Part shown: positions 32,768 through 41,770 of the stretch, piece after piece
How positions within the stretch are numbered: position 1 is the first letter of the stretch
Layout: each line of letters opens with the position of its first letter
Assembly (NCBI RefSeq): GCF_002778315.1
Contig: NZ_NESA01000003.1
Location: 186,001-250,000 of the forward strand
Direction of reading: 5' to 3'
Length of the DNA stretch: 64,000 nucleotides
From: Limnohabitans sp. JirII-31
GTDB lineage: Bacteria > Pseudomonadota > Gammaproteobacteria > Burkholderiales > Burkholderiaceae_C
Translations under genes and position numbers: made by a program
Notes under the pieces: generated by a model
Told to the model about the DNA's origin: nothing
What the model saw: only the letters and a program-made list of their open reading frames with translations
Database searches by the model: none

Positions 32768-32965
32768 CTACTTCTTCACCGTGGCATCGGCCGCCGCAGG
32801 CGCAACAGCGACCACTTTGGCACCACCGTTGAGGTAGTTTTTCACCCAGCTGGTGTTCATGGTCAGCGCCAAGTGCACGCTGAAGGACGAGATCGCCACA
32901 GCAGCAATGAACACAGGGATCCCAACCGATGGTTTCACCACGCACCACATTTTCGAATAGATCAT
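32768..32965 (-). CDS. pucA: LH2 antenna alpha polypeptide
   Basis: PucA is the alpha chain of the peripheral antenna. The 65-aa protein has the family start (MWCVVKPSVGIPVF), a span with His31 as the B850 bacteriochlorophyll ligand, and an Ala/Val-rich C-terminal tail (AAADATVKK). Counting from Met1, residues align without gaps to Rhodoblastus acidophilus LH2 alpha: Trp40 is kept, Tyr44 is kept, and residue 45 is Leu where high-absorbing B850 forms have Trp. It follows pucB by 11 bases with AGGAG before the ATG. Confidence 0.95.
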   Translation of the reverse strand: MIYSKMWCVVKPSVGIPVFIAAVAISSFSVHLALTMNTSWVKNYLNGGAKVVAVAPAAADATVKK

Positions 32966-32976
32966 GAGGTTCTCCT

Positions 32977-33129
32977 TTACTTGAGCCAGGGTGAATAGAT
33001 GTAGGCCAGCAGATGGGCAAATGCGGCAATCATGCCGAATATCTGCGTGCCCTGGATGAGATTGCGGTGAATCTCTTCCGATTCGGCCTCGGTCAGTCCC
33101 GTTGGCCAGACTTTGTCTGAGTTAGACAT
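32977..33129 (-). CDS. pucB: LH2 antenna beta polypeptide
   Basis: PucB is the beta chain partner. The 50-aa product reads GLTEAESEEIHRNLIQGTQ and then a span with AHLLAYIYSPWLK; His21 and His39 are the conserved pair, with His39 the B850 ligand. AAGGAG sits before the ATG at 33129; the frame is open 12 codons upstream but that would bury the ribosome site. No PpsR box is found in the roughly 100 bases before it, so it may depend on the puf-crt transcript or on an unrecognised promoter. Confidence 0.95.
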   Translation of the reverse strand: MSNSDKVWPTGLTEAESEEIHRNLIQGTQIFGMIAAFAHLLAYIYSPWLK

Positions 33130-36466: not shown

Positions 36467-37546
36467 CTATTTGGTTGCAACTTTGGTGGTTACCAAAGCC
36501 GGTTTGAGTAACTCAGGAAAGTCCTTGGCCATCGGTGCCCCGTTGAGCGGCTTGTAGGCCCCTTGGTGGCACGTGGCGCAGTTGAGCTTGGGCACATCAC
36601 CCGTGGGGCCTTTGCGATGGTCTGGGAACACGTCGGTCAAAGATTCCATGTAGCTCGTATTGAGATCACGCGCCATGCGTATGCCATGCCAAGCCGTCGT
36701 GCGCTGAGGCGGACTTTTCTCCCAGCTTTGGAACGACTGGGTGTTGTGGCAATAGGTGCAATTCACGCCCAAAGACGTTGACATGTGGGTCATCAACCCA
36801 TAGGTCCACTCGGCTTGCTTGATCGACTGGCGGTTACCAGACGGCAGCGCGGTCGGCCCATTGACGCGGATTTTTTCCTCACCCAACAAAAATGGTGTGA
36901 ACGGATCGTTGGGCAACGAGGACAAATTCACCACGGCCGAAGGCGTGTTTTGCCCCGCCTTGTCGCCGATGAAGTTGGCGCCTTTGGGCTGAGGATCGGA
37001 CTTGAACCAGATGGCACTGGGCACAGGCTGGCCGCGGTGGCAGGTGTAGCACGTCACACCCGTCTCTGCGACGTGGGGTTTCCAGTCGGCGTTGATGTGT
37101 TGCGTCATCTGAATCATCTTGCGCGCCACCACTTTGGTGTACTTGCTGTCCTCTTGAAAGTTGGGCAGCTGGTGGCAATAGGCACAACCTTCTTCAGGTG
37201 CCACCCAACTGCTCATAGAGACCATCAGGCGGTTGAATTCGCCCACACTCAAGTTGCCCAGCACCTTCACATTTTTGTAGACCTGTGATGCCTTCGGGCC
37301 GTCAGAGCCGGGCGAAGGAATGGCCATGGGCGGTTGGTTCTTCTCGGTTTTCGCGTCCAGCAAGCGGACGTTGTAGACCTGCACCATGCCAGTACCGCGG
37401 TAGCCGCTTTGCACCGATTCGGGACTGGGCCGCTCACACCCGCTCAACAACAAAGCGGCCAGCGCAAGGCCGATGGTTTGCAACAGACGCGCCGCCCATG
37501 GGGTGCGCAAGCGTGGGCTGCAAGAGGTCATGGTGTGTGTGCTCAT
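36467..37546 (-). CDS. pufC: Tetrahaem cytochrome subunit of the reaction centre, PufC
   Basis: PufC re-reduces the special pair from soluble donors. The 359-aa protein is a lipoprotein: a hydrophobic signal ends LLLSGC with Cys37 as the lipidated residue. Four CxxCH haem sites are present: CAYCH, CYTCH, CTYCH and CATCH, in the usual two-pair arrangement. The start overlaps the pufM stop as ATGA. Normal length and full haem set. Confidence 0.97.
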
Positions 37547-38520
37547 GGCTTCACTCCAGTAGCCAGCGCGGGGTCAACCATCGCTGGAAAAATTTCGGGA
37601 TAAGGTGGTGCCACGCCATGCTTGATAGCCCACAAGTACCAGTTGTCCACCACGGTGCCTGTCAGCAAAATGCCGATGCCACCGGTGATGGGACACAGCA
37701 CCGCAAACCACCACGCCCAGCGGTGGATCGACTCCATGGTGGCGTTGAAGCCCATGGTCCAGCGCCAAAACAAGGCAGCTCGCTCGGAGGCTGTGCCACG
37801 GTCGGTGATTTGTTCAATCTCGCGCTCACCACCAAAGCGGGTCACCGCCAAAATGGTGGCGCCGTGCATGGCAAACAGCAAGGCGGAGCCATACAAGAAC
37901 ACGATCGACAGGGCATGGAAGGGGTTGTAGAACAAGTTGCCGTAGCGCAGTGAGAAAGCCGCCGTCCAGTCCAAGTGGGGGAAGATGCCGTAAGGCACGG
38001 CCTCGCCCCAAGAGCCCATCAGGATCGGACGGAACAAGCCCAACACCAGGAACAACCAGATGGCCGCAGCAAAAGCCCACGCGATGTGCGTGCCCATGCC
38101 CAGCTCCACCGCACGGCGGTAGGTGCGCGCCCACCACAGCATCACCGAGGCTGTGAAGAACAAGCCCACGATCAAGAACCAGCCGCCTTGGTTGAGCGGT
38201 GGAATGCTCAGCCCGTAGCTCGGAGGCGGTGGCTCGAGGGAAAGCCAAAACAGCTGACGCACAAACTGGATCGGGTCGTAGTTGACCGAGGCCAGCATGT
38301 TCATGCCAATCAAGGTGAACGCGATCAGACCGCAAAACAGAGAAGCCAAGCCAAGGCCCCCCAAATAGATCGGCCCAAGCTGGGCATTGCCCAACTTGCC
38401 AATCCAATAGCTCAGCAGGGGTTGTCCAGTGCGTGGGCTGTTGCCATGCCCAAGGGCTACCCCTTGGTGTACAGGTCCCACGGCTTGCACCGTGGTGAAT
38501 AGGTTTTGATAGTCGGCCAT
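37543..38520 (-). CDS. pufM: Photosynthetic reaction centre M subunit
   Basis: PufM is one of the two core subunits that hold the special pair, accessory pigments, quinones and the non-haem iron. The 325-aa protein has five spans; [20 protein letters not shown] and [19 protein letters not shown] include pigment and iron ligands, and [18 protein letters not shown] is the family's iron/quinone region. ATG 38520 was chosen ([10 protein letters not shown]), five codons inside a longer frame. It follows pufL by 48 bases. Confidence 0.97.
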
Positions 38521-38568
38521 GGGCTGTCTCCTCAATTCTTTGGATTCGGTCTGTGTGTGCAGTCCAAC

Positions 38569-39405
38569 TCAGACGGGCCACTGGGACCAGATCGGCATGT
38601 TCAGCCACCAGCTCCACCACTCAGGCCAGCCACGGCTCCAGAAGGGGCCGCTGAGCACGATGCACAAGGCGCTGAACAGCACGGCGGCCAAGGCCAGGAA
38701 CAGCCCCAAGCGGTGGATACCCAAAGTGCCGATCGAGTAACCGATGATGTCGCGGAAGAACGTGTCTTCGTGTTCGGGGGTCTTGACCACGGTGCCCGGT
38801 GTGGGGTTGGTAGACGAGAGGATCAGGCCACCGTGCAGCGACAAGGCAAACACACTGGCGAAGAAGAAACTCACGGCAATCATGTGCGCCGGGTTGTAAT
38901 GAAAGTGCAGGTACTGGTAGCCCACGTTGGACACCCAGTCGAGGTGGCTGTAGATGCCATACGGAAAACCGTGACCCCAAGCGCCCATGAGCACAGGGCG
39001 AATCACCACCAACGTGAAGTACGCTGAAATCGCGACACCGAAAGCCACAGGGACGTGATAGCCCATGCCCAGCTTGCGACAGATTTCGACCTCACGCATC
39101 ATCCAAGAGCCGAAGGCCCCCAACGCACAAACGGTGATGAATTGCCAAAGCCCGCCCTCCATCAGAGGCGCAAGGCGAAGGCCGTAAGACAAATCAGGCG
39201 GTGCGATGCTGATCTGCCAAAGGTTCCAGGTCGGGCCTTGTGAGGCTCCCCACAAAATGAGCGCCGTGCCCAGGAACGAAAAGAACAAGGTTGTCACGCC
39301 GAAGAAGCCGACGTAAAACGGTCCGACCCAAAAGTCAAACAAATCACCACCCAGCAGGGTACCTCCGCGGACACGGTACTTTTTCTCAAAACTTAGCATG
39401 GCCAT
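38569..39405 (-). CDS. pufL: Photosynthetic reaction centre L subunit
   Basis: PufL is the second core subunit. The 278-aa protein starts [20 protein letters not shown], the classical L start, and has five spans. [20 protein letters not shown] carries the special-pair histidine and [10 protein letters not shown] the iron-ligand region. GGACC-rich GAGGACCCAACC precedes the ATG. A strong hairpin separates it from pufA. Confidence 0.97.
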
Positions 39406-39434
39406 GGTTGGGTCCTCCTGCTTCAGTGGATCAA

Positions 39435-39472
39435 CAGATGCCGCATTGACACGGGTTCAATGACGGCATCTG
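39435..39472 (-). other. pufA-pufL intercistronic hairpin
   Basis: CAGATGCCG-CATTGA pairs with TCAATG-A-CGGCATCTG: a 15-bp stem with a single bulged base and a 7-base loop in the 83-base gap between pufA and pufL. Comparable hairpins in Rhodobacter slow 3' decay and keep antenna mRNA in excess over reaction-centre mRNA. No T-run follows on the - strand, so a stabiliser fits better than a terminator. Confidence 0.75.
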
Positions 39473-39488
39473 AACGGCAAGTCCTGGA

Positions 39489-39698
39489 TCAGGACTTGGG
39501 CAAGGTGAGCGAAGCCACCGAAGTCGGCAACGGCGAGTTTTGCGCCGATGCTGCTACGGGTTTTTTCGCGCCGTCTAGCCAATTGAATTTGTTCGTGCTG
39601 AGCAAGATGAGGTGAATCATCGCGGCCAAACCAAACAAGAAAATGCCTTGCAATACCATGGCACGCAAAGGATCGAAAAGTCGCCAAATTCTCCACAT
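39489..39698 (-). CDS. pufA: LH1 antenna alpha polypeptide
   Basis: PufA is the alpha chain of the LH1 ring around the reaction centre. The 69-aa protein has [15 protein letters not shown], His29 in the span ([11 protein letters not shown]) as the B875 ligand, and NKFNWLDG after the span, all canonical. The tail is Ser/Ala-rich. The ribosome site is formed by TAGGAG, in which TAG is the stop of the preceding 74-codon gene, so initiation is tied to that gene. Confidence 0.97.
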
Positions 39699-39708
39699 GG
39701 TGAATCTC

Positions 39709-39933
39709 CTAAGTGATGTTGGACATGAAGGTGTACACCGCAGCTTTCACGCCATGGCTCATGCTCTTGGCATCCTCTGCACCAGGCAACAGATCACGCC
39801 ACTGAACGCCGACCAGTTTGGCCAGTACGACGAGCGCGAAGAGAAATCCGAAACTGATGAAAAAAATAGTCCAATACGCTTGAGATTCATCCTCGCGCGG
39901 ATGGTCCTCATTGAGATGGCTTGTGTTTTGCAT
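39709..39933 (-). CDS. 74-aa single-span protein encoded between pufB and pufA
   Basis: I do not recognise this gene. The product has an acidic N-terminus ([16 protein letters not shown]), one span at about residues 20-42 ([20 protein letters not shown]), and a 32-residue soluble tail ([15 protein letters not shown], then YTFMSNIT). GGAG lies 9 bases before the ATG, and the stop TAG is part of the pufA ribosome site, so the gene is actively coupled to pufA. There is no His in the span, so it is not a third antenna chain. pufB and pufA are normally adjacent, which makes the insertion notable. Candidate: an extra RC-LH1 subunit or assembly factor. Confidence 0.75.
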
Positions 39934-39977
39934 GACAGTGTCTCCGTCAATCTAGGGTTTAAAAATCAGGCTCTGAA

Positions 39978-40121
39978 TCAGAACCAGGGACGCCACGCCC
40001 AGACCAAGATGTGCGCCAATACAGCGACCGCTGTAAAGCCTACGGCACCTTGCATCCAGTAATGGTGGAACTCCTGGGCTTCCTCATCGGTGAGTCCGGA
40101 AATAGATGTCTTTGTGGACAT
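39978..40121 (-). CDS. pufB: LH1 antenna beta polypeptide
   Basis: PufB is the beta chain of LH1. This 47-aa frame reads [20 protein letters not shown], then a span with [12 protein letters not shown] at the end; the histidine in AHILVW is the B875 ligand and the WRPW motif is conserved. AGGAG sits six bases before ATG 40121, just after the stop of the 44-codon frame. Confidence 0.96.
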
Positions 40122-40133
40122 TTTTTGCTCCTG

Positions 40134-40268
40134 TTAACGAGGCCTTGCGGCCCGGGATGCGCACAGCCCGCGCAGATAGGCATCCGCAGCCAAAGGCCAC
40201 GACATCTTGAACAAGGGGCCGCGCTTTGCGCCACCCGTTGGCGTGTAAAAACGTGTGTCGACCTTCAT
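40134..40268 (-). CDS. 44-codon frame between bchZ and pufB (pufQ position)
   Basis: An ATG overlapping the bchZ stop (ATGA) opens a 44-codon frame that ends next to the pufB ribosome site. The product (starts [20 protein letters not shown]) is basic and has no membrane span, unlike PufQ, which is about 70 aa with one span. In Rhodobacter, pufQ and the short pufK lie at exactly this position. It may be a translation-coupling leader or a short regulator. I cannot assign a function. Confidence 0.5.
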
Positions 40269-41770
40269 GCCGCCACTCCCAAACCGAGTTCGCGGCTGGC
40301 CGCGTTGACGTGGTCTTCGGTCACTTCGCTCAGGCCTTGTGCTTGCGACAGTTGCTCTGACTGATCGCGCAAACGCTTAGCCGCAGAAATTTGCACCAGC
40401 ACCGGCTGGCTTTGCACCACATCGCGCAAACGCTGCTGGGCCTTGTCTTGCCAGTTGGCATTGGGGGGTGCCACGCCACGCGCTTGCGTGGCCTCGACTT
40501 TGTCCATCTCGGTGGCCAAGGGCAGGATGTGAAACAGGGCATCGAACAGCGCGTTACAGACTTCTTGCACCACGTAGGTGGCGCCGCTGTACCCCATGAA
40601 GGGCGTGCCGGTGTGGCGGCGGATGATGGCGCCCGGAAACGACGCCGGAATGAACGCTGCGCGCATGGGACTGCCCCCCGAGATCTCGCTCAGGTACATG
40701 CGCTCGTTGTAGCTGCCAAACATGATCAGCGGCGTTTGGGTTTTGACCAACTCGCGCACGGTGGCGTTGTCGGTCTTGGTGCCTGCGGTGCGCGAAACGC
40801 TGAAACGGCAAGGCAGGCCCATCTCAAATTCAAGGAAATTTTTCAGACCGCGTGCATAGGTCTCTCCAGCCACCACCGCAAAGCTGGCGGTGGCAAAGAA
40901 GTCTTGCGTGACCGAACGCCACAAGTCCCACAGTGGCTTCAAGGTGGTGTGTTTTTCACGCTCGATGAAAGGCTCTGGATCGAGGTTGAGCAACTGTCCG
41001 AGCTTGCGTAAAAACTGCGTGGTGCTGTGCATGCCAATGGGGGCTTGCAGGTAGGGGCGCTCCAACGCCTCGCACAACATGCGGCCAAATTCGCGGTACA
41101 TGCAGATGTTCACATCGGCCTCAACGAGGCGCGAGACGTCGGCCAAGTGGCTGCCCAGGGGGAACACCATGTTGACCTCGGCCCCAATGCCCTGAACGAG
41201 GCGGCGAATTTCGGCCAAGTCGCTGGCACTGTTGAAGGTGCCGTATGAGGGGCCAATGATGTTGACGCGGGGTTTTTCACCTGCGGGTCGCTCGGCGAAT
41301 GGTTTGCGGGCAGGCACTTTGCGCAAGCCGTACTCGCTCCACAACCAATACATGGCGCGGTTGGCACACTGCCATTGGTCTTCGTCAATGGTGCGTGGCA
41401 AAAAGCGGGCAATGTTGGTGCCCTCAGGTGTCACGCCACCCCCAATCATTTCGGCGATGGAGCCGGTGACCACCACGGCAGGGAGTTCGGGGTCGAGTGT
41501 GGCGTGGGCACGTTTCATGGCACCTTCGGTGCCCTCTCGGCCGAGTTGCTCTTCGGCCAGGCCCGTCACCACAATGGGCAGTTCATGCGGCGGCAGTGCA
41601 TCGGTGTAATGCAGCACAGAGGTGACAGGCAAGTTTTCGCAACCCACAGGGCCGTCGATGACCACTTGCAATCCCTTGATGGCGGTGAACACATACACCG
41701 CACCCCAGTAACCGCCTGCACGGTCGTGGTCGAGGATCAAGGGCGACTTGGGCAGATTTGGCTGGCTCAT
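40265..41770 (-). CDS. bchZ: Chlorophyllide a reductase subunit BchZ
   Basis: BchZ pairs with BchY in the nitrogenase-like chlorophyllide a reductase that reduces the B ring (C7-C8), fed by BchX. The 501-aa protein begins [20 protein letters not shown] and contains [20 protein letters not shown], a BchZ block with the cluster cysteine, and [23 protein letters not shown] sequence near the C-terminus. The ATG overlaps the bchY stop as ATGA. Confidence 0.95.

Follow-up and report, generated by a model that had tools for sequence, protein, structure and literature searches.

A constrained gene between pufB and pufA of Burkholderiales encodes a putative pigment-less relative of the LH1 beta chain

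Small genes of the puf operon and the locus in Limnohabitans

In Rhodobacter, the small protein PufQ is required for the levels of bacteriochlorophyll (BChl) and of light-harvesting (LH) complexes; in Rhodobacter sphaeroides it is needed for BChl supply and binds ferrochelatase (PMC5725709, in excerpt). Betaproteobacterial puf operons carry another small gene, here called X, which a preliminary description of the DNA analysed below took to be undescribed. This is not the case, as the same gene is ORF74 of Roseateles depolymerans (PMC10037100) and ORF2 of Rubrivivax gelatinosus (PMC12817894), with no function given in the excerpts of either paper. In Roseateles, pufB, ORF74 and pufA lie on one major 1-kb transcript and are the three most sigma-factor-dependent loci (PMC10037100, in excerpt). 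The ORF2 paper of 2025, in the passages concerned, limited its alignment of the protein to PufA chains and found against a link with pufA2 (PMC12817894). We equate ORF74 with X on the strength of its name and length and of a locus tag that falls between pufB and pufA, as given in the excerpts of its source, and ORF2 by place and sequence (Rubrivivax loci L072, L073 and L077). The original papers on these ORFs are reportedly those of Nagashima in 1994 and Suyama in 2002. Among open-licence papers we found no statement of the beta-paralogue identity of X or of its relatives at the PufQ position, none pairing pufQ with Burkholderiales and none on PDB entry 8Z81.

The DNA analysed here (the window) is a stretch of 64,000 nucleotides from Limnohabitans sp. 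JirII-31. Its puf genes run in the order pufB, X, pufA, then pufL, pufM and the gene of a pufC-type cytochrome, with bchZ upstream:

36467..37546, minus strand: pufC-type reaction-centre cytochrome, named by sequence and place
37543..38520, minus strand: pufM, reaction-centre M
38569..39405, minus strand: pufL, reaction-centre L
39489..39698, minus strand: pufA, LH1 alpha, 69 aa; Pfam LHC, NCBIfam pufA_517; ATG at 39698-39696
39706..39711, minus strand: TAGGAG, the X stop TAG overlapping the pufA ribosome site GGAG, read from the sequence
39709..39933, minus strand: gene X (ORF74/ORF2), 74 aa, paralogue of LH1 beta in which Lys39 takes the place of the BChl-ligand histidine
39711-39709, minus strand: stop TAG of X
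39933-39931, minus strand: start ATG of X
39945-39942, minus strand: ribosome site GGAG of X, 8 nt ahead of the ATG, read from the sequence
39978..40121, minus strand: pufB, LH1 beta, 47 aa, short form ending in WRPWF; Pfam LHC, NCBIfam pufB_517

The preliminary description had placed between pufB and pufA a frame with a GGAG ribosome site, its stop codon forming part of the ribosome site of pufA, and had given the product a histidine-free span, an acidic head and a tail of 32 residues. The frame is indeed there, with 74 codons for amino acids on the minus strand; its TAG has one G in common with the GGAG of pufA (39709-39706), and head, span and tail (about 30 residues) are as described. No strand had been given, and the plus-strand reading of 39709-39933 is a different frame. 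An AlphaFold model of X is poor (pLDDT 62.7) and predicts a helix at 13-41 and a tail helix at 58-73; a Foldseek search of the PDB with this poor model gave no match at E<=0.001 and seven at E 5.4-9.1. No Rfam elements were found in 38400-41000.

Further small frames accompany the operon. One of 44 aa in the gap between bchZ and pufB (40134-40268, minus strand), without a match in Pfam or NCBIfam, occupies the place of the 'ORF1' of Rubrivivax. A second antenna pair (32768-32965 and 32977-33129, minus strand) looks like pucA and pucB of the LH2 type and accounts for the two further LHC matches of the genome; it is followed by a large MFS-like frame of the PucC/LhaA type.

Conservation of X and its relatives

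X is a real, old and constrained gene. A protein search gave 44 homologues, and a comparison of 41 close relatives counted 16542 differences at codon position 3, 5529 at position 1 and 4097 at position 2. The median dN/dS of these relatives is 0.123 for X (dS was usable in 766 of the 820 pairs; the other 54, with dS outside 0.1-1.5, were omitted), 0.019 for pufB and 0.078 for pufA. Along X, pN/pS drops from 0.41 (head) through 0.21 (span) to its lowest value, 0.07, in the tail, whose PGAE... sequence is the most constrained part; the WR at the end of the span is retained. Over 160 loci, the residues kept in X include W45 (159), R46 (156), G51 (160), V62 (159) and S71 (158). The dN/dS of about 0.12 and the codon-position pattern led us to reject a chance frame or a pseudogene. 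The preliminary description had taken the frame for a genuine gene linked to the LH1 antenna and proposed for its product either an RC-LH1 subunit or an LH1 assembly factor, both of which are kept as candidates below. It was to be doubted if conservation and codon bias were lacking; the frame is conserved and shows the position-3 bias, which upholds it as a gene.

The closest relatives of X are LH1 beta chains, a kinship that the preliminary description had missed. Alignment A2, made of 62 diverse X proteins, was used as a profile and matched that of PufB with a probability of 98.8% (E 8e-17), while a relation to PufA, compared as a control, was rejected at 6.8%. In the PDB, antenna chains make up 40 of the 45 sequences that the A2 profile matched at E<=10, with a best E of 2.8e-16; the best E of a first profile of 42 proteins was 2.1e-8, and a single Rubrivivax X sequence matched chain 9m8m_B, an LH1 beta, with an E of 2e-10. 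The X of the window matched none of the families of Pfam and NCBIfam, and ten of its 62 relatives matched LHC at E<=10 (best 4.4e-6). To exclude a mere likeness of hydrophobic spans, the profile was split into the helix and the 24-residue tail. The helix-only profile also ranks PufBs; when the tail-only profile was run against 21,234 frames, the X copies came first, five PufBs with long tails followed immediately (E 2e-5 to 7e-3) and below these was noise. At the level of sequence profiles, X is thus homologous to PufB along the helix and along the tail, each taken separately. In a tree of X and PufB, X forms one clade adjoining PufB (support 99/95; of 200 bootstrap trees, 98% give it a single origin), the tree being unrooted, with 74 columns and 102 rows and a bootstrap not quite settled.

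Five of the long-tailed PufBs, all with the histidine (L242-L246), have the closest known tails to that of X. Three metagenomic sequences (P0047, P0048 and P0050) are in-frame fusions of PufB and X, either real or produced by read errors; being single sequences, they were omitted from the evidence.

What sets X apart from PufB is the pigment ligand. The histidine that ligates the B880-type bacteriochlorophyll is lost in 159 of the 160 X loci, and the AHx[LATS] motif is kept in all 175 PufBs scanned. The ligand place of X holds Gln in 79 loci, Lys in 44 (the window among them), Ser in 16, Thr in seven, Ala in four, Leu in three, Asn in two, and Arg, Glu, Gly, Cys and His in one each. The database name 'light-harvesting complex 1 beta chain', carried by 13 of the 44 homologues, is consequently half right: the family is that of the beta chains, but X is not a pigment binder through the usual ligand.

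The single X with a histidine at this place (L125:1887-2108) comes from an operon belonging to a group with odd LH1 alpha chains. In that group (L124-L129 and L236-L238), a divergent LH1 alpha with the motif IHLIxISGDRYNINxWHP is accompanied by a matching beta type, and X still lies between the two genes.

The X profile also matched, in phototrophs outside the order, a small gene upstream of pufB, that is at the place of pufQ. In 27 genomes from outside the order, this place is held by a canonical PufQ of the PF05398 type in ten and by a protein of another type, called Q here, in ten, one of them weak (L187, absent from the initial PufQ-position screen). Profile-profile comparison gave a probability of 96.2% (E 2e-9) for X with nine Q proteins and of 95.5% for Q with PufB. 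When eight of ten proteins were checked against Pfam, six of the Q type and L180 were without a family above the cut-off. An 18-protein PufQ-position profile, run against the 64 phototrophs of the family, gave 15 matches, namely ten X, four long-tailed PufBs and a gene of genome G115. The last was the best match (E 2.8e-8); it lies upstream of pufB in the only assessable genome of the family that has a short PufB but lacks X, and it shares four bases with the end of bchZ. The same four-base overlap is stated for Rhodobacter sphaeroides (PMC5725709, in excerpt).

Canonical PufQ behaved otherwise in these tests. Its probabilities were 26.6-31% with X (Rhodobacter PufQ, PF05398) 5.5-6.3% with Q and 0.4% with PufB, none of them significant; among the Pfam matches of A2 members, PF05398 does not occur in the 25 of 29 families listed. 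By these tests X, Q and PufB are one family, which PufQ proper joins only by place, size and shape. Beta chains have their N-terminus inside, so the tail of X would be outside. The predicted location of the PufQ C-terminus is cytoplasmic (PMC5725709, in excerpt), which creates a tension for any reading of X and PufQ as one family. The widest such reading is that X, Q and Rhodobacter PufQ are all LH1 beta chains which abandoned pigment binding and became a factor linking the supply of pigment to the assembly of the antenna. PufQ, believed to be missing from betaproteobacteria, would then be present in them, moved to a place between pufB and pufA, and the tail of PufB in some operons would be this module in fused form. 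We consider this unlikely.

Distribution of X and layouts of the puf operon

In a sample of 399 genomes of the family, 64 have Photo_RC genes, and the order pufB-X-pufA was found in 54 of these. The other ten comprise seven with a long-tailed PufB directly followed by pufA, G115 with its PufQ-position gene, and two left unjudged (G209 and G374), with pufB and pufA outside the stretch examined. In an order-wide set of 300 genomes, 39 were matched by the X profile, three of them already counted; the remaining 36 divide into 27 with X, five with a long PufB and neither X nor Q, three with Q upstream and one chance match (G707, dropped), in a set gathered by the X profile, which also matches PufB, and not by reaction-centre genes, phototrophs that it missed being uncounted. 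A contig search confirmed 120 places of X. Among the best 80 of these, which include named Limnohabitans strains, Rubrivivax gelatinosus and Rubrivivax benzoatilyticus, 78 have pufB-X-pufA and two are cut by contig ends, a set fetched by the motifs of X itself and uninformative on the frequency of its absence. X lies between pufB and pufA wherever a locus includes both genes. Two contigs of metagenome-assembled genomes titled Akkermansia muciniphila and Candidatus Fonsibacter lacus (L007 and L058) carry puf operons of Burkholderiales; these titles are probable binning or naming errors.

Across this order (Burkholderiales), X accompanies a short PufB in 81 genomes, Q accompanies a short PufB in four, and a long PufB stands alone in 12, counts that come from related species and are not independent trials. 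No assessable puf operon of the order had a short PufB with neither X nor Q, or a long PufB with either. The Q model of these counts includes G115, judged by the 18-protein profile search; G841, G983 and G954 were judged separately.

An evenly spread sample of the phylum supplied the genomes outside the order: among its 398 genomes, 31 have Photo_RC genes, four of them belonging to this family and 27 not. None of the 27 had a gene between pufB and pufA, the gap from pufB to the start of the PufA match being 10-89 nt. The premise of the preliminary description, that the two genes are normally adjacent, therefore stands outside the order (27/27) and fails inside it, where pufB-X-pufA is the commonest layout. 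That a tail replaces X or Q was rejected as a general rule: it holds in the order, but outside it ten of the 27 have both Q and a long tail, and three have a short PufB without a detected upstream gene. X and Q are both missing from seven of the 27 and from 12 genomes of the order, which indicates that the function is not universal.

Candidate roles of X

We favour, tentatively and with a probability of about 0.48, the reading in which X, a pigment-less LH1-beta paralogue judging by its sequence, acts as a PufQ-like assembly or pigment-supply factor of LH1. X probably helps to build or shape the antenna rather than to catch light. It would be made in step with alpha and beta, as suggested by the common transcript of Roseateles and by the overlap of its stop with the ribosome site of pufA, and would insert into the membrane as a beta chain does. 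Its beta-like surfaces could then contact the nascent LH1 alpha or the reaction centre, the B880-type pigment not being bound, and X might in this way serve LH1 as a factor of the PufQ type. The PufQ-type role is argued because relatives of X, in other phototrophs and in the four X-less genomes of the order, sit at the pufQ position, and by what PufQ does in Rhodobacter; the pufBA transcript and the beta ancestry fit both this reading and the following one. For the PufQ-type role X is a candidate in betaproteobacteria, among them the laboratory organism Rubrivivax gelatinosus, which makes the question directly testable.

Nearly as likely as a PufQ-like factor, X could be a structural, pigment-free subunit of the mature RC-LH1 complex that replaces or flanks one or more beta chains and closes, interrupts or seals the ring, acting in the manner of PufX, protein-W or gamma chains. 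A beta paralogue that keeps the WR ending its span and has lost the pigment ligand would suit such a part, as would its place inside the pufB-pufA unit, with which the abundant pufBA transcript of Roseateles agrees (PMC10037100, in excerpt), and in Rhodopila gamma-like extra chains lie between LH1 beta chains (PMC9640540, in excerpt). However, X is absent from the 12 long-PufB and four Q genomes of the order, and its PufQ-position relatives, provided that PufQ is homologous, speak for a role other than a structural one. The PDB copy searched holds no X-like chain beyond the beta chains. A ring subunit of this kind would mean that antenna chains were recycled into pigment-free architecture and that betaproteobacterial RC-LH1 models with alpha and beta only are incomplete.

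It is improbable that X is a true minor antenna chain binding bacteriochlorophyll through Gln or Asn. Both residues can ligate chlorophyll in other proteins, and Gln is the commonest at the ligand place; yet Lys, as in the window, Ser, Thr, Ala, Leu, Arg, Glu, Gly and Cys are found there too, and the conservation expected of a ligand is lacking. Slighter still is the chance that X is mainly a translational device tuning the ratio of beta to alpha, its peptide being unimportant. The stop of X carries the GGAG in 139 of the 160 loci and lies 10-12 nt from the ATG of pufA in 133, and such a role has been proposed for pufK in Rhodobacter (PMC5725709, in excerpt). Against it stand the strong constraint on the protein, most of all in the tail, the homology to PufB over the full length and the conserved length. 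A decaying copy of pufB, which a beta paralogue without the ligand histidine might bring to mind, is hardly credible for a single clade spread across many families with a dN/dS near 0.12 and no stop codons.

Comparison with the known systems places X among the small proteins of the photosynthetic apparatus as follows. PufX, protein-U/Y, protein-W and the gamma chains are small single- or few-span additions to RC-LH1, and X may work alike. Their genes sit elsewhere than X, that of PufX after pufM (PMC9640540, in excerpt). The likeness to PufX or protein-U suggested in the preliminary description does not extend to sequence: as none of the 45 PDB matches at E<=10 is a PufX, protein-U, W or gamma chain, a relation by sequence to any of them was rejected. 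The PufQ of Rhodobacterales resembles X in its length of 72-75 aa, single span, conserved C-terminus and membership of the puf operon (PMC5725709, in excerpt); it is encoded between bchZ and pufB, whereas X is encoded between pufB and pufA. Q (alignment A5) is a single-span protein of about 72-95 aa, its tail ending in FM[GSR] in most cases; its genes and those of G115, G841, G983 and G954 in this order also lie between bchZ and pufB, unlike X. PufB (PF00556, NCBIfam NF040862) shares with X the operon, the single span and a homologous helix, and the PufBs beside X have 47-50 aa compared with the 74 aa of X in the window. In the long-tailed forms of PufB, the homology to X includes the tail.
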